Position numbers and translations under genes: made by a program. A stretch of DNA of 39,329 nt, taken from NCBI RefSeq assembly GCF_027484545.1, contig NZ_JAIXST010000305.1, positions 1 to 39,329 of the forward strand, given 5' to 3'. The DNA comes from Runella sp. Lineage in GTDB: Bacteria; Bacteroidota; Bacteroidia; Cytophagales; Spirosomataceae. The notes beneath the pieces were generated by a model. The model was given only the letters and a program-made list of their open reading frames with translations. It ran no database searches and was not told the DNA's origin. Below are positions 7,801-21,126 of the stretch, piece after piece (position 1 is the first letter of the stretch; every line of letters begins with the position of its first letter).

Positions 7801-9859
7801 TTTCATAGACAATATCTCCGCCCACTTCCGCTTTGCTGCCCTTGTCATAAGCGGCTTTGGGAATATAAGTAATGTTGTCGATTTTATTCAAGTCCACAAA
7901 AAACTTGTTGTAGTTAAAGACCAAATCGCGGCCATTGAAGCGGAAATTGGCCGATACCAACAGGCCATTCATTGAAAAATCCCGATTTTTGAGGACTTTG
8001 ATTTGTTTATCCGAAGGCATCGCTACGATTTTGAGGGAGTCACTGACGGTGAATTTATCCACACCTCGTATCGTCAATACGTTGTCTTTGAGATCAATAC
8101 TGGCATTGGCCGTTGTGCTGTTGGCAGGATAAAGCGAAGAAATCTGAAGATTGTCAAAGTCAGCCTGTTTGTTATTGGCCAAAACGTACAAAATTCCCTT
8201 GTTGGTTAATCGTAAAAGCCCATTTTTGGGATCAGTAACCACATATCCTTCAAAGTATAACTGATTGAAAGCTGCCCGAACGGCGTTCATATCCTTCTTA
8301 TAAAATTCGGTAATTTCTTCGGGAGCAAACGTAGGTGTTTTTTGTTTGGCTACGTAATTGGCTGCCATCAACAGCGGGTGAAATCCATACTGCTCGCTCA
8401 TGGCCCGAAAACGTTCCTGTTTGTAGAAATTGAACGATTCAAACCGAATAGGGACCACTGTTTTGCCCGAAATAACCGAAAACTCAATTTCATTTTTGAC
8501 AAAATTCCACCGCAGCATCTCGGCTTCAATGAACATCTTATGGTAAGAATCGGAGTACGGAGTATACTGAAAACCGGTACGACGATCAGCCGGTTGTGTT
8601 TTTACCAATCCTTCCGTATCGTTGTAAGAAAGTTTGATTCCTGGGTGATGCAGGGAGTCAGTTCCCAAATACGTAGTAAAGGTAGCCAACGGCGAAGTAA
8701 TCAGAGAATCCGTCAGTTCAAAGCGGCGACTGCTGGATTTAAAGGCTGTTTTTCCGTTGTAACTGATGGTTATGGTAGAAGGGTCCTGGGTCAATGAGGC
8801 TCCGGATAGTTTCAGTCCTACCAACGATAATCCCCCCTGATAACGAATGTTTTTGCTTAAACCGCGTAATTGAGCATCGTTTCGATACGAAACAAACTTT
8901 GGATAAGGCGATGGGTGTCCTTTGCCGCGTTTTTTACTTTCGTATTCAAATACTCCTTCCACGGGTTGCGACAACTTCGTATCGTAATGGAGCTTTGCCT
9001 CGTCTGCGATGAGTTTTGGTAAACCAACGTTAAAGCTATATCCACTGAGGGTCACATACGCCTCGGGACTGCCGGCGGTTTCCCACGTCATTTTTCCGCC
9101 TGTTCCTACCCAAATCCCTTCCCGTACCGCCAATTTTCCGCTCGTTTGGGTAAGAGGGACTGAGTCATTGGCCGTAACCATGACCAAATTGACGTTTTTA
9201 AACTCAATAATAGCACCTGTAACGGTTGGTAATGGCTTTTTTTCGTAAGCATTTAACTTCAATACCCCTGCTGAATCGCCCACTACGTCACCCCACCCAT
9301 CGTTGGCAGGAGTTGTTTTAGCAGGCTCTATCGGTTTATTCGGGTCGGGGGTACTCTCGAAACGAAAACTGTACGTGCCTTCATACGCAAACAAACGATT
9401 GAAATTAGAAGTATATATCAGTCTGTTTTCAAATAAGTTACGCGCCGTTTCGAAGTACTTTAATGAACTTTTGGTATCGTACGTCTCTATCACTTGAGCG
9501 GCGGTAGTCAAATACCCTTCCACTTCAGTGGGGACTGCATACGTCCCGTTGAAGGCGGCGTAAGTCCCGTTAAAAAACTGCTCAAAGTGAGGTGTAGTCG
9601 GTTTATAGCCTTTGGCTACCATCCGTTTGGTAATTGTAACGATACTTTTCTGATGACTTTGCGTCAAACGACTGTCCAACCACAAAGTTTCGAGGTTTTT
9701 AGCTGCCTTGATATAAGTGGGGTTCCCGCTCATGGCCATCATCTTTTGTGCGTCGGCAATAAATTGTACCGGATCGTCCGAAAGCTTGACTACCTGAGCT
9801 TTTAAACTTTGCCCAGTCAAGAATATAAGTAGGGTGAAATATAGAAAAAGCCGTTTCAT
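4895..9859 (-). CDS. Very large secreted protein of unknown function (1654 aa)
   Basis: The protein starts with a Sec signal peptide (hydrophobic core FLYFTLLIFLTG, cleavage likely after LKAQ at residue 21-22). It has no later obvious membrane helix. Residues about 22-1536 are rich in short alternating strands, suggesting stacked beta domains. Residues about 1537-1654 are a low-complexity Lys/Ala/Pro/Thr tail with an acidic patch (ESEEKEEIVEEE), probably disordered. I do not recognise a named domain. I recall similar long proteins as conserved hypotheticals in Cytophagales, but that is recollection and not a search. The gene is monocistronic: a strong terminator follows and the divergent DUF2851 gene starts 78 bases upstream. 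A periplasmic or surface structural role is possible but unsupported. Confidence 0.88.
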   Translation of the reverse strand: MKRLFLYFTLLIFLTGQSLKAQVVKLSDDPVQFIADAQKMMAMSGNPTYIKAAKNLETLWLDSRLTQSHQKSIVTITKRMVAKGYKPTTPHFEQFFNGTYAAFNGTYAVPTEVEGYLTTAAQVIETYDTKSSLKYFETARNLFENRLIYTSNFNRLFAYEGTYSFRFESTPDPNKPIEPAKTTPANDGWGDVVGDSAGVLKLNAYEKKPLPTVTGAIIEFKNVNLVMVTANDSVPLTQTSGKLAVREGIWVGTGGKMTWETAGSPEAYVTLSGYSFNVGLPKLIADEAKLHYDTKLSQPVEGVFEYESKKRGKGHPSPYPKFVSYRNDAQLRGLSKNIRYQGGLSLVGLKLSGASLTQDPSTITISYNGKTAFKSSSRRFELTDSLITSPLATFTTYLGTDSLHHPGIKLSYNDTEGLVKTQPADRRTGFQYTPYSDSYHKMFIEAEMLRWNFVKNEIEFSVISGKTVVPIRFESFNFYKQERFRAMSEQYGFHPLLMAANYVAKQKTPTFAPEEITEFYKKDMNAVRAAFNQLYFEGYVVTDPKNGLLRLTNKGILYVLANNKQADFDNLQISSLYPANSTTANASIDLKDNVLTIRGVDKFTVSDSLKIVAMPSDKQIKVLKNRDFSMNGLLVSANFRFNGRDLVFNYNKFFVDLNKIDNITYIPKAAYDKGSKAEVGGDIVYEKSGRIYLNDPTNKSGAKKNSVFPRLNVPEGMTVYFDQADRGNLAYDRKVFFKIPSIDYDSLATQDIVFIGIFNSNGIFPPFKAELRSMPDNSLGFKYIPPAAGYKVYGTTTNVKFTKELTMDKQGLRSQGEITHLSARIPTEGMLFMADSMIANGAQAEIKEAIIGKAYFPKVDLRNYTMRWTPKADSMSLTTKVNTFNFYNGTTKLDGRIVLRSTGLYGKGLLRRDDSELTSQDIKFNKEGFLAGESQYKIISNTNTTRPILLGKNVDVDFNLVKGLVGISTNKNSLENTSMEFPFTAYRTSINRAQWNINAKTIAMKGDVATSTFTATAPEQEGLTFNGSSALYEIEKMTLNIGGVPFVTTADAKVLPDKGLVVVHRNGEMMPFKNARLVLDTLNEYHRLKNGNIQVVSRTKFTGDATYLYATVTNDTIPVKMGNFNLQQASLTASASNRLPQSKNKVSYTVAKAEIVELDNFVVAPRMQYKGRMTMLAPEPNLQFDGYVKPIIKKRLDLVASWIPFKETPTKDAALKVTPTLKNESDLPISVGLHYRAGADGLYSTFLSAKEAKNDQTIFEANGLLRFDDKTKSFRIVPEPKTPDELIDEENAYTFNDAKGTITYQGKLNFINEKGVKEGEELFMSAGSVQTNIDSMTYRFNSLLSFNFPANREIITKAAENIVQTNLDEQNSDPAEPNFERLGAKLAALIGRKATDGYIARTAAAYKPLFDASPKFNATLVLSSVNLRWSPSQNAFYSVGKIGVSNLGNTDINAEMVGMIEIRKSTRGDEISIYLESSDDVWYYFDWQQDKLAMVSSTQEINDFIAIKSKDKKETAVLAIGLEERDMFVDRFNSLYRPKPKKTTLAKAPVKGAPTKTATPAPGSKTAAKTPPVVATKESEEKEEIVEEETPKVADKASKTEKGTKDTKVAANSKDPKVAAKDTASKAKPGTKVVQTPAKAPVKKKEKAEEKEGF

Positions 9860-9937
9860 ACTGTCTGTGTTATTTGCGCAAGACCAATCAATACAATATA
9901 ACTAAATTTAGTATCATTTTATTTTTAACAAAGCATT

Positions 9938-11218
9938 ATGTCCGAAGATTTCCTGTACTTCTTGTGGCAATTTCAGTATTTTGATAAAACAAATTTGCAA
10001 ACCGTTGCCGGTGAGTCACTTCAGACGTTGGCGGTGGGACAGCGCAATACCAATGCCGGCCCCGATTTTTTGAACGGTCGTGTCTTAATTGATGGCCTCG
10101 AATGGGTCGGAACGATTGAAATGCATCTCCGAAGCTCGGATTGGCATCGGCATACCCACAGCCACGACCGAGCGTACGACAGTGTTATACTGCATGTAGT
10201 CTGGGAAAATGATGCAATTATTCAGCGCCCCGATGGGACTTCTGTCCCCACTTTGGAGCTAAAGCCGCTGACTTCAAGGCAATTGCTTTACAAATACCAA
10301 GCCCTGACGGAAAGCAAAGAGGTGATTCCCTGTGCCAGTCAATTTGCAACTTCTGCCGAAATTCAAAAACTGTCTATGCTCGACCGAGCATTAATGCAAC
10401 GACTTGAGCGTAAAGCAGCTGCAGTTCATGAAATGTTGGAACGCAACCATCAGGATTGGGAAGAAACGGCCTATCAATTATTGGCTCAAAACTTTGGGTT
10501 TAAAATCAACGCCGAACCAATGCTTCGATTGGCACAGGGATTGCCGCTGAAAGTCCTCCAAAAACACCGCGATAATCTTACTCAAATGGAAGCACTTCTT
10601 TTGGGACAGTCGGGTATGCTGCCTGCAATCGAAAACACGGATAATTACGTAGATATACTGCGACGGGAGTATGATTTTTTGTCGGCAAAATATTCCCTGA
10701 AACCGCAGCAACTTCGGGCACACGAGTGGAAGTTCCTGCGATTGCGCCCTGCCAATTTTCCTACAGTGCGTTTGGCTCAATTGGCCACTTTAGTACAGCG
10801 CCAACCGAGTTTGTTTTCGTTGTTTATTCATACGGAGACTCTTAAAATGTTGCAGAATGCCTTGCGTGTGGAGCAGTCAGGATATTGGCAAAAACACTAT
10901 CAGTTTCAAAAAGAAGCTACCGGCAAAGTCCCTGCTTTGGGAAAAACATCGGTAGAAAATATCATTGTCAATACGGTTGTGCCGTTGTTGGTGGCTTACT
11001 CAGAAGCAAAGGACAGTCGACTGTTTTTAGACAAAGCATTGGAACTTTTGGAACAACTTCCTGCCGAGCAAAATCACATAACCGAGATGTGGGAAGGATT
11101 AGCGTTGAAAACGAAAACAGCATTTGATTCTCAGGGAGTTATTGAGCTTTATAATAATTTTTGTTCTGAAAAACGATGTTTGAATTGCGGCATAGGAACG
11201 GCACTTTTGAAGTCTTAA
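9938..11218 (+). CDS. DUF2851 family protein
   Basis: This 426-residue cytoplasmic protein matches the DUF2851 family of Bacteroidota. The N-terminal motif N-A-G-P-D-F-L-N-G-R, then V-G-T-I-E-M-H-L-R-S-S-D-W-H-x-H and V-I-L-H-V-V-W-E-N-D form a nuclease-like pattern of acidic and histidine residues. The C-terminus carries a cysteine cluster (C-S-E-K-R-C-L-N-C-G), possibly a metal site. Biochemical function is not established; a PD-(D/E)XK-like nuclease is only a guess from the residue pattern. It is divergent from the 1654-aa gene and followed 81 bases later by the M28 peptidase, which has its own promoter. Confidence 0.9.
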   Translation: MSEDFLYFLWQFQYFDKTNLQTVAGESLQTLAVGQRNTNAGPDFLNGRVLIDGLEWVGTIEMHLRSSDWHRHTHSHDRAYDSVILHVVWENDAIIQRPDGTSVPTLELKPLTSRQLLYKYQALTESKEVIPCASQFATSAEIQKLSMLDRALMQRLERKAAAVHEMLERNHQDWEETAYQLLAQNFGFKINAEPMLRLAQGLPLKVLQKHRDNLTQMEALLLGQSGMLPAIENTDNYVDILRREYDFLSAKYSLKPQQLRAHEWKFLRLRPANFPTVRLAQLATLVQRQPSLFSLFIHTETLKMLQNALRVEQSGYWQKHYQFQKEATGKVPALGKTSVENIIVNTVVPLLVAYSEAKDSRLFLDKALELLEQLPAEQNHITEMWEGLALKTKTAFDSQGVIELYNNFCSEKRCLNCGIGTALLKS

Positions 11219-11299: not shown

Positions 11300-12769
11300 A
11301 TGTACCGTAACCTATTTCCTGCCTTTTTAGTAAGTGTCAGCCTGCTTGTTTTTTTTGCCTTTCGTGGAGACGATGAATTTGTTCCAACTTTTCAGAAAAT
11401 TAATGATGATGTCCTCAAAAACAGCCGCGCTTATGAAACATTGGGCGATGCTACTTCTACCATCGGGCATCGTTTGACAGGTAGCCCCAATGGGGCAAGA
11501 GCAGAATTATACGCTTTCAATCTGTTCAAAAAATACGGCTATGCCGACGTAAAATTTCAATCGTTTGAAGTGGAATCTTGGATGCGGGATACGGTTACGC
11601 TCGATGTCGTTCCTAATAAAAGTGATAACTTTCGTACGGTACCCGTCGTGGCCTTGGCACATTCTCCCGTTCAGGCAAAGGTGAGCGGACGTATTGTGGA
11701 TGTAGGAAATGGATTGGAGGAAGACTTTGAGGCGGTAAAAGATCAGATTAGAGGTAAAGTAGCCTTGGCCAATATCGGATTGGTGAATGGCAAACCGGGT
11801 CAAAAAAACCTGCATCGCTCTGAAAAAACGGCTTTGGCCATTCAATACGGTGCTACAGGGATTATCACTGTTAATCAAGTGCCGGGAAATGTACTTCTTA
11901 CGGGTACTGCTTCAGTAACGGGGTCGTTGATTGCTATTCCTGCCGTGAATATTTCGAAAGAAAGTGGTGAAGAAATTCGCAATTGGATGAAGGTCGATAC
12001 CGATTTACACGCCATTGTTGACATGCGCAACGTGAGTAAGAAAATCAAAGTACGGAATGTAATAGCCACTATTCCCGGAAAGTCTGACGAGCGCATCATC
12101 ATCGGAGGGCATTTAGATTCGTGGGATTTAGCAACCGGAGCCTCTGACAATGGCCTTGGTTCTTTTACCATTATGGATATTGCACGTACCTTCAAAACCC
12201 TGAAAATAAAACCCAAACGGACCATAGATTTCGTGCTTTTCATGGGAGAAGAGCAGGGGTTGCTCGGTTCTCGCCAAGTTGTCAAAGAATTGATCAAAAC
12301 CAAACAGGTGGATAAGGTGAAGTTCATGATGAACCTCGACATGACCAATAATGTGTACGGAATGAATGTGGGAGGACGGGACGAATTGATTCCTTTCTTC
12401 CAGTCGGTGGGGGAACAGATTAAGAAAGTGGATGGCAATTATGCCAATGCCGTCAGCAGTCGGGCAGGGCTTCATTCTGATCATCAGCCTTTTATGCTGG
12501 AAGGTATCCCGACGGGTGCACCTGCGGGACGTCTCGGCCCTAACGTATTTGGCTGCTACCACGCCAATTGTGATAATTTCAACCTCATCAACCGGGAAGA
12601 AATGGTCAATGGCGTACGATTCTCGGCTATGCTTCTCTACGCTCTTGCCAATGCCAATGACTTACCTGCCAAAAAATTAGACAGCTACAAAACCCGCGAT
12701 TTGCTCATCGCCCAAGGCCTTAAAAAAGAATTGATTTTGGGGAAAGACTGGAAATGGGGTGAGAATTAA
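11300..12769 (+). CDS. M28-family metallopeptidase with PA domain, exported
   Basis: This is a 489-residue di-zinc aminopeptidase/carboxypeptidase-type enzyme. An N-terminal hydrophobic segment (residues 5-22) serves as export signal. A PA-type insert (about 125-235) precedes the catalytic core. The zinc ligands and catalytic residues of clan MH are visible in order: G-G-H-L-D-S-W-D (His and catalytic Asp), A-S-D-N-G (bridging Asp), M-G-E-E-Q-G (catalytic Glu and ligand Glu), N-L-D-M (ligand Asp) and C-Y-H-A-N-C-D (ligand His). The likely role is trimming extracellular or periplasmic peptides. Substrate preference cannot be read from the sequence. The cleavage site of the signal is not clear, so it may remain membrane-anchored. 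Confidence 0.93.
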   Translation: MYRNLFPAFLVSVSLLVFFAFRGDDEFVPTFQKINDDVLKNSRAYETLGDATSTIGHRLTGSPNGARAELYAFNLFKKYGYADVKFQSFEVESWMRDTVTLDVVPNKSDNFRTVPVVALAHSPVQAKVSGRIVDVGNGLEEDFEAVKDQIRGKVALANIGLVNGKPGQKNLHRSEKTALAIQYGATGIITVNQVPGNVLLTGTASVTGSLIAIPAVNISKESGEEIRNWMKVDTDLHAIVDMRNVSKKIKVRNVIATIPGKSDERIIIGGHLDSWDLATGASDNGLGSFTIMDIARTFKTLKIKPKRTIDFVLFMGEEQGLLGSRQVVKELIKTKQVDKVKFMMNLDMTNNVYGMNVGGRDELIPFFQSVGEQIKKVDGNYANAVSSRAGLHSDHQPFMLEGIPTGAPAGRLGPNVFGCYHANCDNFNLINREEMVNGVRFSAMLLYALANANDLPAKKLDSYKTRDLLIAQGLKKELILGKDWKWGEN

Positions 12770-12895
12770 AAATAATTTTATGTCAAAATACAAAATATAA
12801 ATAAGCGGAAACTATATATTAGTTCCTCATAAATACATTTAATTTGAGAAAACTCAGAAGCTAAAAATTACTCGGCAAATAGAAGCTGAAATTAT

Positions 12896-14458
12896 CTAAA
12901 TTGTTTCAAATATTTGATTCATAATTTTTATTAAATAGAGCGTCTTGCCTAAGAACTCAAATTGTTCAGTAGAAGTCCCGTTTAAATTAAATATATATAC
13001 ATTTTTATTTAACTCCGAAATAATGTTATGTGGTAAATTATCTAATTCCTCCTCATCGCAAAATAAGATTATTTTCTTTCCAAGCCCATAGGCATAACCA
13101 AGTTCTGTCAATGAGGATGATAACCGAATTTTATCTTTTTCATTAGGATATTTCATTTTGGGATATAACAATACAAAATATTTACTTTTTGCGATTGCTT
13201 CAAAGGTTTTTTCATAAATACCTGGCCGTATAAACTGTTTATAATTTTTAGAAATGTCTGTATGTTCACATGTTGAATATTTTGTTTTAAGTCCAAACTT
13301 TTGAAGCATTTCTGATAGCTTAACTGACAAATTACGGTTTGTTTGGTATGTCACCTCCGCAGACTCTTCCGAAGAGTTATTGTAAGTAAGAGGAACTGAT
13401 AAGAAATAGTCAAATCTATATAAACGAACATCCTTATTAATGCCTCGTTCTCTTACTTTCTCAATAGTTTTCCCCAATTCTTCTAAAGTAAATTTCCCCA
13501 GCCCTTTGGGTATTTTTATGAAATTTTGATCACGCCTTTCTAAAAAATCAATAATTGCATTGTCAATTTTAGTTTCTAAACCCTTAATTTCATCATGAAT
13601 TATACATTTGTACTTTTTCAGAGTGTCAATTTTTTCTTTATTATCAAGTTTCAATAATAAAGCAGTTCCACAAAAAAGAGTACCTTCTTCTCTGACATTG
13701 TAATAAACACCTAATGCAATTTGATTAATTTGATCTTTGTTGAAAAATAAAATTAATCTTAAATACCGTTGATTCTCGTTGACTCTCAACGGTTTTGTTT
13801 CCAAATAAATACCTCCTTCTTTATTTTTTACAATTTTATATTCTCCTGTATAACTATTCTTTTCCCCTTTCCTGTTGATGTTCCCTATTTCAATGATGTT
13901 TTCCTTAAATTCGACAAGGGACTCTTTAATTCCATATTTCTTAAGTAAAGAATCTTCATTTTTTAATTCTGACTGTTCCCAAAAACAATACAAAGCCCAA
14001 TTGTTTTGTTTTAAAATTGCTCTTTCATGTATTGCTTCTGGATATATAGCATCATTGTAGTTGTTTGTATAATCTAATTCGTTTCTATATTTTTCTTCAA
14101 AAAGAAATGCAAAAACTCCTTTAATTGTCTCTGTCTTAATCTTTCCTTTAAGTTTTCCATCATTAAGATAGGCATATCTATAAATATCCTTATATAAAAT
14201 CGAAAAGTTACTGAGGAGAGGCGCATTTTTTAGTGGATTCTTCTCAAAATACCTTAATTCTGCATATCTACTTCCTACGGTTTCTTTAGACTCGCCACTT
14301 AGAAACTCTCCAACTACACGCCAATATCTTGACTCTGACAAGTTTTCATCACTAAAAACCTCTCCTGTTATATTATGATAGAATTTAGGGAAGCATTCTT
14401 TAATCCTTTCAAGAAACAATTTTGCACCATTCGTTGAGAATTCGACATACTTACCCAT
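12896..14458 (-). CDS. Unknown protein with C-terminal TIR/deoxyribosyltransferase-like domain (candidate defence effector)
   Basis: The protein has 520 residues. Residues 1-170 look helical, 175-275 are strand-rich, and about 345-490 have the Rossmann-like pattern of the nucleoside-deoxyribosyltransferase/TIR superfamily: a first strand F-D-Y-F-L-S-V-P-L, then K-S-K-Y-F-V-L-L-Y-P, then S-S-S-L-T-E452-L-G-Y-A-Y-G-L-G-K-K-I-I-L-F. Glu452 is in the position of the catalytic glutamate. Such domains cleave N-glycosidic bonds, including NAD in immune effectors. The N-terminal parts match nothing I recognise. The gene is visibly more AT-rich than its neighbours (a hand count of 13021-13080 gives 16 G+C in 60, against 25 in 60 for 12001-12060) and is divergent from another AT-rich orphan gene, suggesting transfer. 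The NADase or defence role is inference. Confidence 0.7.
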   Translation of the reverse strand: MGKYVEFSTNGAKLFLERIKECFPKFYHNITGEVFSDENLSESRYWRVVGEFLSGESKETVGSRYAELRYFEKNPLKNAPLLSNFSILYKDIYRYAYLNDGKLKGKIKTETIKGVFAFLFEEKYRNELDYTNNYNDAIYPEAIHERAILKQNNWALYCFWEQSELKNEDSLLKKYGIKESLVEFKENIIEIGNINRKGEKNSYTGEYKIVKNKEGGIYLETKPLRVNENQRYLRLILFFNKDQINQIALGVYYNVREEGTLFCGTALLLKLDNKEKIDTLKKYKCIIHDEIKGLETKIDNAIIDFLERRDQNFIKIPKGLGKFTLEELGKTIEKVRERGINKDVRLYRFDYFLSVPLTYNNSSEESAEVTYQTNRNLSVKLSEMLQKFGLKTKYSTCEHTDISKNYKQFIRPGIYEKTFEAIAKSKYFVLLYPKMKYPNEKDKIRLSSSLTELGYAYGLGKKIILFCDEEELDNLPHNIISELNKNVYIFNLNGTSTEQFEFLGKTLYLIKIMNQIFETI

Positions 14459-14570
14459 ACTAAAAAATGTTCATTTGATGAAAAAAAAGGAAAATGTTGC
14501 ATAAAATAAGACAATTAAAATGGAAAAAACGAGAAAAAATAAGAAATATTTTAGAAATAAAGTAAATATT

Positions 14571-14606
14571 AAATCCAATACAAAACCCCTGTTTTGTATT
14601 GGATTT
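14571..14606. promoter_or_regulatory. Perfect hairpin in the divergent intergenic region
   Basis: A 16-bp perfect stem (14571-14586 with 14591-14606) has the tetraloop CCCT. It lies 41 bases before the ATG at 14648 and 112 bases before the divergent start at 14458. It could be a terminator insulating the two genes, an attenuator or an operator. On the plus strand a CTCTTTTTG tract follows. Confidence 0.6.
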
Positions 14607-14647
14607 ATTACTCTTTTTGTCCCCATAAACTAAATATCAAATAACCC

Positions 14648-15613
14648 ATGAAAAATTTAATGCGTTTTATTAACGAGCTAAAGCTGGAAAATCGGTACTT
14701 ATTGGCATTAATTGCAATTTTGGGACTTTGCTTAGTTTGCATTGCCTTAATTGTTCCAGAAGACTGGAAGTTTATTAAAGAAGCCCTAAGCAAATTAGGC
14801 TCGGCGGTTCTAATAGGTGGCGTAATACATTTTTTAGAACATTGTTTTCTTAGACATTCTGAAGATGAGCAACGAAAAATTGATTTAAAAATAGTGCTTG
14901 AAGACCTTAAAAACCAAATTCTTGATGAAGTACAGCAAATAGTTGACGAGTCAGGCAAGAACCTTATTGGTAACTATACGTTAACCAAATACGATATTAA
15001 AATAATGACAGAGAGACTTTTACATAAGTATCTTCCAGCAAATAAACACTTTGAAAATGTGGGGTTAGCAGATATTCTTCCACGCTTTGATCTTGATGGT
15101 TTTTTTAGTGATGTGCGCAAAAGAAGAAATACTCGAATTCGTTTTTCGGTACTTCATTTACCTTTTACTAACCGAACTGAAAACGAGATTTATAGAACAA
15201 TTGTGGAAGATGGAAATAGTGTAGAAATTTTGATATATGATAAGTATGCTAAAGAAGCATTAAAAAAACGAGTTGAATCTCTCGGAAAAAATGATTGGTG
15301 GGAGCTCAAAAAGGCCATTGAGATGGATGAAAAAATGTTGAGAAGTCTTCGTAATCGCCTACCAAATCAATTTAAAGATAAACTTAAAGTGAAAATTTAT
15401 AAAGGATTTATTTCAGCTAGCATTTATGGTGTTGGTGAAACTTACTGGTGTGGCCTATATTTACAAGACCGTTCGGCTTTAGAAGGTACAATGTTGAAAA
15501 TTCAAGGTACTTCAAGTACATTTTTCCATGATATAGATCATCATTTTGAGTGTATGTGGAATGCATCCACTACCATTGATTTAAATTGGTTTTTGAAGCA
15601 ACATGAAAACTAA
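14648..15613 (+). CDS. Two-TM membrane protein with PLD-like/DUF5919-like C-terminal domain (unknown function)
   Basis: The 321-residue protein has a short cytoplasmic N-terminus, two probable membrane helices (about 18-37 and 48-66), a charged helical or coiled-coil segment (about 70-115) and a C-terminal domain (about 135-315). That domain has the pattern I associate with PLD-like or DUF5919-type domains: I-R-F-S-V-L-H-L-P, E-I-L-I-Y-D, then V-K-I-Y-K-G-F-I-S-A-S-I-Y and W-C-G-L-Y near a final H-H-F-E-C-M-W. No HKD motif is present, so phospholipase activity is not supported. It lies in the AT-rich island opposite the TIR-like gene. A membrane-associated sensor or effector is possible; this is inference. 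A bidirectional terminator follows directly. Confidence 0.65.
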   Translation: MKNLMRFINELKLENRYLLALIAILGLCLVCIALIVPEDWKFIKEALSKLGSAVLIGGVIHFLEHCFLRHSEDEQRKIDLKIVLEDLKNQILDEVQQIVDESGKNLIGNYTLTKYDIKIMTERLLHKYLPANKHFENVGLADILPRFDLDGFFSDVRKRRNTRIRFSVLHLPFTNRTENEIYRTIVEDGNSVEILIYDKYAKEALKKRVESLGKNDWWELKKAIEMDEKMLRSLRNRLPNQFKDKLKVKIYKGFISASIYGVGETYWCGLYLQDRSALEGTMLKIQGTSSTFFHDIDHHFECMWNASTTIDLNWFLKQHEN

Positions 15614-15614
15614 T

Positions 15615-15648
15615 ATGGTAGCGGTAAAAGTATTTTTACCGCTACCAT
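15615..15648. terminator. Bidirectional terminator between the two-TM gene and the alpha-2-macroglobulin gene
   Basis: A perfect 15-bp stem (15615-15629 with 15634-15648) with a 4-base loop lies between two convergent stop codons, with A/T runs in the inner stem. Confidence 0.85.
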
Positions 15649-15651
15649 TTA

Positions 15652-18600
15652 TCAATACACTTTCACTTTTCCGCCTCCCGAATAACTCCGAAAATCGCCT
15701 GAATACATCGCATCGGCCGAAACGGGCCCAAGGGTGAATGTACCTTTGGTGATAACGCGAACCATGTAATAAAACGTCTTTTCGACGTTGTTGGCGGTAG
15801 TGTAATAGTTGATGCGGTCGTCGCGAATATCGAAATGATCGGGTGTTGTGGGGTTCTTAATCCAAGGCATATCACGCGGCTCAGTCAGGCGCGGGTTTTC
15901 AACTTCAAAAGCTGCCGGAAGCAAATCCGTCACCACCACGTTTTCAACGGGTGAGCCGTCAGTGCTTGTCAATGTAATTTTGACAACAACCAAATCATTT
16001 TGGTGGAAAGCGCTGAGTGGCTGTCCGTTGCGGTTCAGGAACTGCTTGCGTACGCGCAATCCTGCATCTTCCTCTACATAAGCGCCTGTGGCACTTAAAC
16101 CTTCAGACTGAGCAAACCAATACAACGAGCCTTTGCCGGAAGCAGTAATTTGTAATTTTTGATTTAGTGGTTTAGTGATTATTAAGTCTTTCCCGTCAAA
16201 TTTACTCACTACTCGCTTCTCGCTACTCACTACTGCCGTTACCGTTGAACCTGCATTTTTCTTGGCCAATTTTCCCAAAGCTAAAAACGAGAACGCCGCT
16301 TCCTGAGTATTAAGATAGGCGGTTGAATTAAGTGCCTGCGATAATCGACGCGCTAACGTTGGAATTTGAATGTTGTTGGGGTCGGTTTCGATTAAGGTAT
16401 TCAAGGTCAACGCTATATTTCGAATAGGCGAAGCAAAACTGCCGCTTAATTGGCGCGATGAGCGAGTTTCGGCAAGCGTAGCCGGCAATAACGCGTAATA
16501 ACTTCGTTCGTCACCGATTTGCTTGAACGCCGCCGCTAATAGGTAGCGGGTATCCGAAGTCAACAACTGCTGATTTTGTTTGTAATAATTCATGGAAGCG
16601 CGGTTGGCTTTACCACCCAACGCCAAAGCATACAGCGAATACAGCGACGAACGACTTCCAATCGTCACTTGGGTATAGCCGCTTGCCTCATCGTAAACAT
16701 AATCATATTCGGTAGCGGGAGTACCTGTTTTTACCGTCAAATAGTTCAACATCCGACCTACAGCTGATTGATTGATTTCAAATCCGGCACGTTGGGCTTC
16801 GAGCAGGAAATGCGTGGCGTAGGCAGTTCCCCAAGGCGATTCTTCGGTTCCTGCGGGCCAGTAACTTACCGCCCCATTGGGCAACTGCATACTTTCAACC
16901 TTTTGAATAGCCGCCTGCACATTGAAGGTAGGGTTAAAATCGCTTTCGCCCGTTTTGACTACGTACGTTTTGGGGGCAATGGATTTGGCAATATCAGCAA
17001 AGTACAGCTGCGGAAAAGCCTTGGAAATCGTTTGCTCAATACAACCGTGCGGATAACCCAACAGATAATCCAATGCCTTGGCATACTGCACCATAGGCGA
17101 ACGACTCACTACCAATTTGCTGCTCACCGTGGAAGGAATAAAACCATTGCCGCTTAAATCAACGGTTCCTGCGCTTCCTCCCGCAATTATGCCTGATTGT
17201 GATGTTTTTAACAGCGAAGTCGCAGGGCGAATGGTTAATTCGGTTTTTTCAACAAATTTCTCCTTGCCATTATTTACTGTCACGGTTACGCTGCCCATCC
17301 CCATTGCTTGGGCGGCTTTGACCACAAAAGCCGTACGACTTTCCTTTTCAGGCGCAATGCTCAGCGTTTGAGTTTTGCCCTGAAGATTTTGAAGTTGTCC
17401 GTTTACGCTGATACTCACTTGGACATTAGCGGCTGTTTTCTCCGTATTCGTTACGTTAACCGGGACAATTAACTCATCATCAGGGCTGAGAAAACGCGGC
17501 AAAGCTGTGCTGATCACAATAGGGTCAGCAACTTTCATGTTTTTGTTGCCTGACCCAAACGCATTGTCTTTGTAAGCCACTGCCATAATGCGCAAATCGC
17601 CCGAAAACTGCGGAATATCCACTTCAAATTCTGCTTCTCCGTCAAAACCTGCGTCTATTTGTCCCGACCAATAGGCCACCAAATTGACACGTCCGTTAGA
17701 AAGCGGATTGATGCGTTTTTCCAAATCGTATCCGTCACCCCCCACACTGCTCGCTGAAGCCAACGAAAGTTCGGGGAAAAGGAACGGATATAAATCGTGG
17801 CTATTGACTTCCAAGGCCCGTTTTTGATAGAAAAATCCGTGAATGTCAGGCGTTTGGAAATTTTTGATTTGCAGGATGCCTTCGTCTACCACGGCTATCG
17901 TCACCTGCGCATTACGAGCCGTTTTTATCCTGATTTTTTGTTTGGTTTTGGAACGGGATTTTTCCACGGCAACAATTTCCACGGGCAATTTGGTATCATC
18001 GTCTTCGACCTTGACCGAAGCAAAACCGTGCGCTACGGTAAGCGGCAAATTAGAATTGTCCAAAGGTCGAATCAGCGTAGCCGTGATGAAGGCATTCGGT
18101 AAATGTTCACTTCCTACTGAAAAACTGAATGCCGCCGACTTGTTATCCGTCTCCAAATAGTGATGCTCCAGCACTTTGTTGCGCTCAACCGTCACCAAAA
18201 GTTTACCCACAAAAGGTGTTTTAAACAATACCTTGGCTTTGTCTCCTACTTTATAATTAGGTTTGTCAAATTCCATTAACACTTCGCCTTCGTTGCTTAC
18301 CTCAAACGAAGAGGCCGATGTGCTGCCCCAACCATAGGCGTAAAAATTAATCACCGAATACCCCGTACTGCCAACACGCCGTATTCTGACTTCGTATTCT
18401 CCCGAAACGGTAGGCACATAACGAACCTCCGCCAGTCCATTTTTGAAAGAAACCACGTTGGAATACACTATTTTCTCCCGTTTTTTGGAAGCATAGCGAA
18501 GTTGGTCATTTTGTTTTTCAACCACGGTTTGGTAATCCATTCGGATAACTTCAACTTGGGCCGTGGCGGTCGCTTTGGGCTTACCGTCTTTGTCCACAGC

Positions 18601-21126
18601 CACGAGTCCAATGGGGACGGGAGCGTTGAGGCCCACGTAATTGTCCGCCATTTTTACCCCGTAAAAAACATCCTGCGTAAAAACATCAAAGCGTTTGAGA
18701 CGATTCACGGGACGTCCCGTTTCGTCAAAAACGGTTACGTATATTTTTCCTTCCAATACGCCCAAATCCTGATACTCGGCGGGAAGCGGAAACGTTTCTT
18801 TTGCCAAGCCATTGTCATCCGTGACTCCCTGTCTGACAACGCTCTCGAATTTTGTAGCGTTGTCAGGCATGTCGAAAATGTATTCTTTGTATCTGTCCGC
18901 AAAAAAGGCTTTTCGTTTGAGCGAAAACTCCATTTCATAATTACGGCCCGACGCAGGAGGTCCAAATAAATTGAGGGCCGTGGCGTTAAGGGAGATAGCT
19001 TGTCCGGTGCGGTAAAATTCCTGATTGGTTTTGGCATCTACCTTGATGCGGTCGGGCATAAATTCCTCAATGTTCAGCTTTTTGGAAGCCAGCAGTACAT
19101 CATTTCCGTTGTACACTTCCACGCTGTAGCCACCCGTCACGGCGGCTTTGTCGAGCACCAACGACGTTTCTACGGCTCCTTCGCTATTGGTATTCAATCT
19201 GTATGATTTTAACTCTTTACCGTTGGGCAATAACACTTTGATTTTCAACGGAATCTCTCCCACACTTTTCCAGGTTTGCTGACGCACAACGGTGTTAAAA
19301 TGAATGGTTTCGCCGGGGCGATAAATATCACGGTCGCCATAAATAAATGCCTCAAAACCCGACGTATTATCACGCTTGCCTTCCACTTCAAAACGAGAAG
19401 TTTCGACTTGGGTATCTTCTAAAAACAGGTAGTTAAAATCGTCGTCGATGTTGTTTTTGGAGGGAGCCGTTTTTGCTATCACCATGGCAATGGTGAAATT
19501 GGGAGCTTTCTCGGAAAGTTTTTCAAATTTAGCGACCCCTCGGCTATCGGTTCGACCCGTCAGTACCGTTTGGTTGTTGGAAGATATAAGGCTGATTTCC
19601 AGATTATCAAGCGGTTCGGCGGTTTTGATGGAATTGGCAAAAACCCAAAATTCATCCTGCCCCTGCTTAGCAATCAGTCCAATGTCCGATAAAGACACCA
19701 TTTTCACGGCCCGTTGGTATTGTTCGTCCTTGGACTGAACAGTGACGACGTAAATCCCCCGAAAGGCATTAGGGGCATCGGGCAAGCCCAAATTAAGTGC
19801 GGAAACGCCCTTTACTTTTGGTAAATTGTCGGTTTCGATGGTTTTGTCAACAATAATGTCGCTATAAACCTGATTGTAATCGTCTTCATAAGTATAATTG
19901 CCCGTTGGTCCCCAATTGTCTTCGCCACCTAAGTTTCCGTATTCTTCGTAGCGATTGGTACGCAGGTATTGCAAAATGTTGTTTTCGTAAATCTTCGCAA
20001 TTTTGACCTGAACTTTGGGGATATTCACCACCTGCACGCCTACGTTACGTGCACCTTTGGAAGACAGATAAATGGCTTTTTTATTGACAAATGAAATACT
20101 CGCGGGCATATTACCAAAAAACAAATCCTTCGTGATTTCTTCTTCCAAATGCGCTCCCAATACGCCTTTGACTTGGTCGGTCAGAGTTAAAACGTAGGTG
20201 TCCGTTTCATTAAAATCACCGCGAATAGTGAAGCCGTTTTCGGTCAATTCGGCCTTCGTTTGTACCGCGGGCTGAATAGAATAATACGAAGCTAAGTCCA
20301 CATTTTGAAGCTCTTGTGTGGTGATAATGCGTACTACGCCGCGATAGTTTTCAAAGCCCGTTTTTACGTCTTTTACCTCCAGCGTTGTTGCAGATGGAAT
20401 GGTGCCGGAAAGCTTGATTTCTTCTTTGGTCGTGTAAGCAGTGTTGGGGACTTTAACCCCTTTTTCAACCGAAAATTCCAAAGGTTGTTCGTTTTTGTCA
20501 GCCGCTGCGTCGTTCAAAACCACCGTAATTGCCTCTGAGGGTTGGGTTTGAGTGGTGGAAGAACGAAAAGACTTATCTTCACTTTTTACCTTCAATTTGC
20601 TAACTACTTCGTTTCCGTTGACACCGTAATTGAAATGCAGTTTGGTTTTGGCCAACGGTTTGCCCGATTCGCGCGATTTGGTCCAATAGGTCTCGGCATC
20701 CGTCAATTGAAGATACGGCGTATGAAATTCTATCTCTTCGCCCGAAACGCCGTATTTTTTGTCGGTGGTTTTCTTGGCCAATTCTTTGCTCAACTCCGCT
20801 CGGTATTCAGTAGCGGGTTCAAAGCCGCTGGCGGGGGAGAATATTAGTTCGTTGGGAGCTGTCCATTTGAATTTTCCCGCCACGGCAGGGATAAATTCCA
20901 CAAATTTGGTGGATTCCCAACTGTTTAGTTCTGACGCGGGCACAATGTCTTTATTGAAAGTAAAGACCAGATTTTGAGCCAAATTGATTTCATCCTCAAA
21001 ATTTCGTCCCACTACCCGAATTTCGTTGAGTTTTCCACATTGAGTGAGGAATAGTGTGGAAAAAAACAGGAAAATGGAAAACGGAAAACGGAGAAAGGAA
21101 AAAGAACGACTGAACGGCGTTTTCAT
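15652..21126 (-). CDS. Alpha-2-macroglobulin family lipoprotein (thioester type)
   Basis: This 1824-residue cell-envelope protein has a signal peptide with lipobox L-T-Q-C30, with Gly at +2 and no Asp, so it is probably on the outer membrane. Macroglobulin-type beta domains fill the first two thirds; G-D-R-D-I-Y-R-P-G-E-T-I-H-F near residue 600 is the typical MG2 motif. The thioester motif is Y-P-H-G-C1362-I-E1364-Q1365, followed by the all-helical thioester domain. Family knowledge: the protein traps attacking proteases, often alongside penicillin-binding protein 1C. No pbpC gene is next to it here; the AT-rich island follows instead. The start at 21124-21126 gives a good signal peptide, whose core (residues 8-19) is encoded by a heptanucleotide repeat tract. 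Two more such tracts lie near the 3' end (16161-16234). Confidence 0.95.
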   Translation of the reverse strand: MKTPFSRSFSFLRFPFSIFLFFSTLFLTQCGKLNEIRVVGRNFEDEINLAQNLVFTFNKDIVPASELNSWESTKFVEFIPAVAGKFKWTAPNELIFSPASGFEPATEYRAELSKELAKKTTDKKYGVSGEEIEFHTPYLQLTDAETYWTKSRESGKPLAKTKLHFNYGVNGNEVVSKLKVKSEDKSFRSSTTQTQPSEAITVVLNDAAADKNEQPLEFSVEKGVKVPNTAYTTKEEIKLSGTIPSATTLEVKDVKTGFENYRGVVRIITTQELQNVDLASYYSIQPAVQTKAELTENGFTIRGDFNETDTYVLTLTDQVKGVLGAHLEEEITKDLFFGNMPASISFVNKKAIYLSSKGARNVGVQVVNIPKVQVKIAKIYENNILQYLRTNRYEEYGNLGGEDNWGPTGNYTYEDDYNQVYSDIIVDKTIETDNLPKVKGVSALNLGLPDAPNAFRGIYVVTVQSKDEQYQRAVKMVSLSDIGLIAKQGQDEFWVFANSIKTAEPLDNLEISLISSNNQTVLTGRTDSRGVAKFEKLSEKAPNFTIAMVIAKTAPSKNNIDDDFNYLFLEDTQVETSRFEVEGKRDNTSGFEAFIYGDRDIYRPGETIHFNTVVRQQTWKSVGEIPLKIKVLLPNGKELKSYRLNTNSEGAVETSLVLDKAAVTGGYSVEVYNGNDVLLASKKLNIEEFMPDRIKVDAKTNQEFYRTGQAISLNATALNLFGPPASGRNYEMEFSLKRKAFFADRYKEYIFDMPDNATKFESVVRQGVTDDNGLAKETFPLPAEYQDLGVLEGKIYVTVFDETGRPVNRLKRFDVFTQDVFYGVKMADNYVGLNAPVPIGLVAVDKDGKPKATATAQVEVIRMDYQTVVEKQNDQLRYASKKREKIVYSNVVSFKNGLAEVRYVPTVSGEYEVRIRRVGSTGYSVINFYAYGWGSTSASSFEVSNEGEVLMEFDKPNYKVGDKAKVLFKTPFVGKLLVTVERNKVLEHHYLETDNKSAAFSFSVGSEHLPNAFITATLIRPLDNSNLPLTVAHGFASVKVEDDDTKLPVEIVAVEKSRSKTKQKIRIKTARNAQVTIAVVDEGILQIKNFQTPDIHGFFYQKRALEVNSHDLYPFLFPELSLASASSVGGDGYDLEKRINPLSNGRVNLVAYWSGQIDAGFDGEAEFEVDIPQFSGDLRIMAVAYKDNAFGSGNKNMKVADPIVISTALPRFLSPDDELIVPVNVTNTEKTAANVQVSISVNGQLQNLQGKTQTLSIAPEKESRTAFVVKAAQAMGMGSVTVTVNNGKEKFVEKTELTIRPATSLLKTSQSGIIAGGSAGTVDLSGNGFIPSTVSSKLVVSRSPMVQYAKALDYLLGYPHGCIEQTISKAFPQLYFADIAKSIAPKTYVVKTGESDFNPTFNVQAAIQKVESMQLPNGAVSYWPAGTEESPWGTAYATHFLLEAQRAGFEINQSAVGRMLNYLTVKTGTPATEYDYVYDEASGYTQVTIGSRSSLYSLYALALGGKANRASMNYYKQNQQLLTSDTRYLLAAAFKQIGDERSYYALLPATLAETRSSRQLSGSFASPIRNIALTLNTLIETDPNNIQIPTLARRLSQALNSTAYLNTQEAAFSFLALGKLAKKNAGSTVTAVVSSEKRVVSKFDGKDLIITKPLNQKLQITASGKGSLYWFAQSEGLSATGAYVEEDAGLRVRKQFLNRNGQPLSAFHQNDLVVVKITLTSTDGSPVENVVVTDLLPAAFEVENPRLTEPRDMPWIKNPTTPDHFDIRDDRINYYTTANNVEKTFYYMVRVITKGTFTLGPVSADAMYSGDFRSYSGGGKVKVY
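16161..16234. repeat. Two degenerate heptamer tracts inside the alpha-2-macroglobulin gene
   Basis: At 16204-16234 the units are ACTCACT, ACTCGCT, TCTCGCT, ACTCACT, ACT, with an exact 10-base repeat spaced 21 bases (16204-16213 and 16225-16234). At 16161-16186 units of GTGGTTTA/GTGATTA type repeat. The tracts encode a Ser/Val/Lys-rich linker-like stretch after the thioester domain. Confidence 0.6.
21069..21103 (+). repeat. Five-unit heptanucleotide tandem tract encoding a signal-peptide core
   Basis: Units read GGAAAAT, GGAAAAC, GGAAAAC, GGAGAAA, GGAAAAA. The opposite strand encodes residues 8-19 of the alpha-2-macroglobulin signal peptide. A 20-base part (21082-21101) recurs inverted at 544-563. 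Confidence 0.75.

Follow-up and report, generated by a model that had tools for sequence, protein, structure and literature searches.

A 39,329-nt stretch of a Runella sp. genome (contig NZ_JAIXST010000305.1; hereafter the window) carries a 2,882-nt insert of low GC content (0.30, against 0.44 elsewhere in the window) between the genes for an M28 peptidase and an alpha-2-macroglobulin-like protein (A2M). The insert holds two divergent genes, P1 and P2, separated by 189 nt. P1 lies at an acquired site, is a credible candidate for a defence gene and encodes a protein whose N-terminal half is unfamiliar. We see about an even chance that P1 is a stand-alone anti-phage sensor-effector in a site receiving defence genes, with P2 as separate cargo. 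A preliminary description of the region had pictured a horizontally acquired two-gene module; the island itself is confirmed, and that interpretation is partly supported. The main features are:

12770..15651, unstranded: low-GC insert flanked by M28 and A2M, which converge on it; four sister genomes have 54 nt at this junction, and genome G165 has 3,221 nt
12896..14458, minus strand: P1, 520 aa, putative sensor-effector defence protein
14648..15613, plus strand: P2, 321 aa, N-terminal membrane segment(s) and a C-terminal domain
11300..12769, plus strand: M28 peptidase flank (PF04389, 1.8e-35), present in 13 of 13 genus genomes including the window's
15652..21126, minus strand: A2M-like flank, bacterial type, adjoining M28 in 6 of 13 genus genomes including the window's

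Both divergent open reading frames (ORFs) were recovered at the positions and on the strands first reported, and the M28 and alpha-2-macroglobulin flanks hold, as a PF04389 match and an A2M-like protein. The lower GC content ascribed to the two genes was borne out as well: positions 12896-15613 have a GC of 0.304, against a mean of 0.438 (standard deviation 0.015, minimum 0.391) for the 31,176 stretches of the same length that do not overlap it.

The 5.8-10.1 kb beyond the M28 gene were compared in all 12 other genomes of the genus. A2M follows convergently in five. Four of these (G170, G164, G161 and G167) have an empty site, in which the aligned M28 and A2M coding ends lie 54 nt apart, with an inverted repeat, seen by eye, inside the gap. 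The gap of the fifth, G165, is 3,221 nt long and contains an AAA ATPase gene and a small partner gene (GC 0.30 and 0.29), together with a transposase split over two ORFs (GC 0.54 and 0.50; winged helix-turn-helix and DDE_3 parts):

L031:1630-4638, G165: PD-T4-4 pair, then transposase, in the M28/A2M gap (PADLOC, Pfam)

PADLOC matched the pair with PD-T4-4_A (E 2e-112, nearly full length, 375 bits) and PD-T4-4_B (5e-20, residues 22-146 of 182), and the call rests on these two matching components and the 375-bit score. A Pfam search of the small partner at 0.1 matched nothing. The remaining seven genomes have other genes beyond M28, with A2M unmatched within the stretch compared, and the site is occupied in two of the six genomes with the M28-A2M gene order, the window included. 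The window insert therefore occupies a site into which different foreign DNA has also entered; the sole other occupied case is of defence type. The empty site in four sister genomes and the different foreign insert in the fifth support horizontal acquisition, and the PD-T4-4 pair supports the suggested anti-phage role as far as location goes. According to passages of two published accounts, PD-T4-4 emerged when anti-phage loci of E. coli were selected experimentally, and its position there was within an element resembling integrative and conjugative elements (PMC9519451); its protein families are an AAA ATPase and a PD-(D/E)xK nuclease (PMC10952713). The G165 pair fills the same site as the window island but comes from protein families other than those of P1 and P2. 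With a recognised anti-phage pair in one species, other cargo here and nothing in four, the M28/A2M gap is an insertion site of the genus, and reading it in more strains should offer an inexpensive means of seeking further Bacteroidota defence genes.

The second body of evidence concerns the C-terminus of P1:

12899..13426, minus strand: P1 residues ~345-520, TIR/NDT-like domain (TIR-DrHyd-SLOG class), predicted from sub-threshold profiles and a low-confidence model
13103..13105, minus strand: codon of E452, predicted catalytic glutamate, invariant in three P1-family proteins and a Curtissbacteria NDT-like protein

The C-terminal ~175 residues very probably belong to the TIR/NDT (DrHyd) fold class, a judgement from several weak and mutually non-independent lines (Pfam, alignment, a ThsB match in a homologue, Foldseek) that agree with the assignment made earlier. 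E452, whose position is as first given, sits in SSSLTELGYAYGLGKK, and the C-terminal region shows it within SSSLTELGYAYGLGKKIIL. The conserved glutamate of an E-L/I-G-x-A motif marks NDT-like members of the TIR-DrHyd-SLOG class; this glutamate is present in all three P1-family members and in the Curtissbacteria protein. The invariant C-terminal columns of the family are S447, E452, L453, G454, A456, G458, K461 and K462. Nuc_deoxyrib_tr (PF05014) is the top Pfam match of all three members (E = 0.006 for P1, 0.013 and 0.16 for its homologues), and P1 shares with NDTs the ELGxAxGxxKK motif, whose glutamate in the P1 family we take to be of the NDT catalytic type.

Profile and structural comparisons point the same way. 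A three-sequence C-terminal profile was aligned by hhalign with 4 NDT loci, 4 ThsB loci (the piece from L050 being incomplete) and 17 of 30 TIR loci; the scores for NDT, TIR, ThsB and the NDT-like L046 alone exceeded those of 60 of 60 column-shuffled targets. The PADLOC model of ThsB, a TIR-like protein, matches the C-terminus of the homologue in genome G046 (3.7e-4) and is the only PADLOC match there; P1 itself gives only SP_VI (E 0.23). The TIR-DrHyd-SLOG class has a Rossmannoid alpha/beta domain with a sheet of five strands; in the low-confidence AF2 model of P1, strands and helices alternate in the C-terminus. Among the best 50 of 1,449 Foldseek matches in the PDB are the TIR domains of RRS1 (probability 1.00, target TM 0.51) and SARM1 (1.00, 0.57), and among the best 50 of 923 viral models are a Cap12/Pycsar-type TIR (1.00, 0.40), a Hokovirus NDT (0.97, 0.55) and a phage deoxyribosyltransferase (0.94, 0.49). 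Judged from domain lengths and strand order, these matches probably fall on the C-terminus. TIR and DrHyd are grouped as NAD-using immune domains of one clade in passages of PMC9503650. An NAD- or nucleotide-cleaving output is a plausible prediction for P1.

P1 is rare. In the family, two of the 221 other genomes, G046 and G169, carry homologues with 32 and 30% identity to P1 in an alignment of the three; even samples of 395 genomes from the phylum and 341 from the order gave no relative beyond the window's own. A wider scan of genome contigs returned the G046 and G169 contigs and one short Curtissbacteria NDT-like protein (L014), which served as a comparator and is left out of the homologue count. 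These scans used short patterns or a first look, and distant relatives may escape them. Viral contigs, phage records and plasmid records held no P1 relative, phage and plasmid records held none of the G169 homologue, and the P1 sequence matched no solved structure. The G169 homologue has a GC of 0.30 among neighbours of 0.43-0.55. As a separate observation, PHROG 23497, a phage protein family of unknown function, matches the C-terminal part of the G169 homologue (L013:49-1356) at 4.7e-5, and this PHROG may be an NDT/TIR-like family.

Ahead of the C-terminal domain lies a part that is conserved in the two rare homologues:

13634..14026, minus strand: P1 residues ~145-275, all-beta conserved region, possibly a lipocalin-like barrel (AF2, Foldseek, alignment)

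The low-confidence AF2 model has about eight strands in this region, and the columns invariant among the three proteins are Y218-L-E-T221, R231, L249-G250, R256, G259, G264 and A266-L-L268. Residues 1-~140 are variable, and the G169 member begins near P1 residue 67. Lipocalin-type barrels (anticalins, siderocalins, odorant-binding proteins) are frequent among the top PDB matches, with E values of 5e-3 to 3e-2 and target TM mostly 0.3-0.4, and they probably correspond to residues ~145-275. A lipocalin-like barrel in the middle of P1 is put forward as a lead only. The lipocalin-like fold elsewhere binds small hydrophobic ligands. It is conceivable, though we consider it unlikely, that P1 is the founder of a rare group of bacterial immune receptors, each a single protein whose ligand-binding lipocalin-like barrel exerts direct control over an NAD-cleaving domain of TIR/NDT type. 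The literature searched contained no barrel-TIR/NDT fusion protein, although a published one may exist. In passages of PMC7159879 and PMC8195603, NTPase-type immune proteins appear as fusions with DRHyd domains, and the words lipocalin and calycin are not used there.

We propose the following mechanism. Under this reading the island is foreign cargo, and the variable chromosomal site in which it lies takes up defence genes. The N-terminal part of P1, including the beta-barrel-like region, would sense something made or changed in infection, and sensing would release or assemble the C-terminal TIR/NDT-like domain. E452 of this domain would then cleave NAD+ or another nucleotide, and the infected cell would be stopped. 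P2 would be a membrane-anchored protein, acquired separately into the same site and not an obligate partner. The insertion, the re-use of its site by defence-type DNA in one sister genome, the rarity of P1 and the conserved E452 motif are observations; the TIR/NDT fold, the cleavage, the sensing and the defence role are predictions. P1 is a short and testable candidate defence protein, whose putative sensing half could not be placed.

The relation of P1 to P2 was examined through gene distribution and the DNA around the two genes, which includes two terminator-like elements:

14567..14610, unstranded: near-perfect palindrome with 20-nt arms and a 4-nt loop, terminator-like on both strands, between divergent P1 and P2
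15615..15648, unstranded: terminator-like hairpin, its 15-bp stem perfect, located where P2 and A2M converge

One alternative holds that P1 and P2 form a single divergent system: the membrane-anchored P2 would be either the sensor of infection or the target, and P1 would act in the cytosol as the effector that cleaves NAD or a nucleotide. The shared insert, the divergent layout and the short gap favour it, and the intergenic palindrome could serve as a shared operator. Across 222 genomes of the family, however, the two occur together only in the window's own; P1 homologues are found in G046 and G169, neither of which has a P2 homologue, and a P2 relative is found in G102. The palindrome, moreover, resembles a bidirectional terminator. 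We regard this two-gene system as improbable. The module of the preliminary description is rejected as the leading account because the homologues share no genome among the 221 others, and with the terminator-like palindrome between the genes an obligate module is unsupported. The palindrome ends 37 nt ahead of the P2 start codon, between both 5' ends. A terminator usually lies at a 3' end, and the two genes may accordingly have been acquired separately. The palindrome may be a shared operator or attenuator, or possibly a relic terminator. Its 36-nt core (14571-14606) has a single genomic copy at up to 3 mismatches, and its candidacy as a repeated element was dropped. The terminators said to border the island hold in part: the hairpin after P2 is there, whereas the other palindrome lies between the genes, and a consensus terminator scan lists none at the left edge. 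A promoter scan was uninformative (15 sites, 14.5 expected).

A simple hydropathy scan gives P2 a single strong hydrophobic stretch, at about residues 13-43, in line with one of the two transmembrane segments claimed for it, whereas the second (about 50-68) is marginal. Nor is P2 strictly an orphan, as had been claimed: another contig of the window's own genome encodes a relative with 27% identity over residues 117-304, and the relative in G102 shares 23% over residues 123-307. Searching 295 genomes of the class gave only two further matches, in G1004 and G1030, which were dropped as relatives because they span profile positions 3-86, the membrane segment only. Invariant columns of the P2 family are scattered over the C-terminal half, the last being D297-x-H299-F300. 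The PLD superfamily has the motif HxK(x)4D. HxK is absent from P2 and both relatives, and PLD-type catalysis is therefore not expected. DUF5919 matches P2 at E=0.049 with 13.9 bits, below its cut-off of 23.5 bits, and is not among the matches of the two relatives; a DUF5919 scan of 149 relatives gave 0 matches with equally silent controls and is uninformative. The single-sequence structure model of P2 was unusable (mean pLDDT 45; best PDB match E 0.074), and with that model no PLD structure appears among the best 50 of 308 Foldseek matches. The PLD/DUF5919-like domain proposed earlier is accordingly unsupported, and P2 was rejected as a PLD enzyme. Viral contigs, phage records and plasmid records contained no P2 relative. 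In G102 (L009:3855-17715) a tyrosine recombinase is followed by about ten small same-strand genes, the P2 relative among them, with related non-coding repeats, each about 350 nt or longer, in between. The layout is like that of an integron cassette array except that the repeats are long, and it suggests that genes of the P2 type can move as cargo. The repeats were discarded as strongly folding attC-like sites, one 357-nt copy folding no better than shuffles (z 0.63).

Several observations weigh against the defence reading of P1. All of its domain matches are under curated cut-offs, with PF05014 scoring 17.1, 16.1 and 12.5 bits in the three family members against a threshold of 28.8 bits. NDTs carry an aspartate six residues ahead of the catalytic glutamate; P1 has Leu446 there, and differs from NDTs further in its long N-terminal fusion. 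ThsB is unmatched by PADLOC in P1 and in the G169 homologue (the latter at 0.01). The hhalign probabilities are low (NDT 16%, TIR 6%, ThsB 2.5%, L046 alone 33%; 25-47 columns), and the score against a single NDT sequence, L043, was reached by 1 of 60 shuffles. The AF2 model of P1 is poor (mean pLDDT 43.9, pTM 0.36), no PDB match at E 0.001 occurs among the Foldseek matches listed, and the two viral matches that reach E 0.001 have chance-like probabilities of 0.20 and 0.18. A defence-type occupant of the site is seen in one sister genome only. The G046 homologue has a GC of 0.33, inside the range of its neighbours (0.28-0.41), and ordinary-looking genes separate it from two defence-type AAA ATPases about 2 and 4 kb away, one AriA-like (8e-25) and one HEC-01A-like (2e-23); the PADLOC scan of these L010 neighbours left out ORF 1-285:

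L010:320-1000 and 8428-10306, G046: defence-type AAA-ATPase ORFs flanking the P1 homologue, HEC-01A-like and AriA-like, the latter with a small, weakly PDC-M47B-like partner

PADLOC matches proved unspecific in a control on the window. After overlap removal the window has 24 ORFs of at least 90 aa, 22 besides P1 and P2, and 18 of these 22 were scanned. Five of the 18 (3 of 10 and 2 of 8) match at 1e-6 or better. Two are ABC-type ATPases (mad3, 1.4e-37 and 7.1e-29); the others are a HipA_C protein, a PLP-type enzyme (DndA/SspA) and a protein whose match is of HD type (Cas3, 3.6e-7). For this reason the ATPase matches near the G046 homologue are weak evidence, and together with the absence of ThsB from the G169 homologue the control slightly weakens the ThsB link and the G046 neighbourhood argument.

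Another reading gives P1 no defence role: its domain would be either a nucleotide-binding sensor that lacks catalytic activity or an NDT-like housekeeping enzyme, present in the insert as neutral cargo. Sub-threshold Pfam scores and the lost NDT aspartate would fit, and passages of PMC9503650 include nucleotide-binding sensors in the TIR/DrHyd/SLOG class. E452, however, is invariant in proteins that share only about 30% identity, and PD-T4-4 occupies the same site in G165. We consider this reading unlikely, if somewhat less so than the other alternatives. The reading of P1 as a stand-alone sensor-effector is kept, at about even odds, because the site evidence and the conservation of E452 carry it. 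Alternatively, P1 could act in signalling, as a TIR/NDT enzyme that resembles ThsB or ADP-ribosyl cyclases and produces a messenger of the cyclic ADP-ribose type, to be received by P2 or by another protein of the genome. The ThsB match in G046 is consistent with this, as is the inclusion of cyclases among DrHyd members in passages of PMC9503650, but ThsB is unmatched in the other two family members, P2 has no PADLOC match, and ThsA is absent from the 18 scanned window ORFs, the remaining genome not having been searched. A messenger role appears improbable to us.

The comparison with known systems places P1 outside both Thoeris and the retrons. To Thoeris it is linked by the ThsB match of the G046 homologue, but P1 is a 520-aa fusion that lacks such a match and has M28, P2 and A2M as neighbours, with no adjacent ThsA. 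The likeness to Retron-Eco1, a type I retron, lies in the NDT-like domain, which in Retron-Eco1 is the NAD-cleaving effector of what was reportedly described by Carabias et al. in 2024 as an NAD+-hydrolysing immune complex. The window differs in that PADLOC found no reverse transcriptase in P2 or the 18 scanned ORFs, and a whole-window Rfam scan at gathering scores gave no match and hence no retron RNA.

Elsewhere in the window, at 573-1885 on the minus strand, HipA is split into two ORFs, one with the Couple_hipA N-terminal domain and one with HipA_C, an arrangement that we take to resemble the three-gene HipBST toxin.

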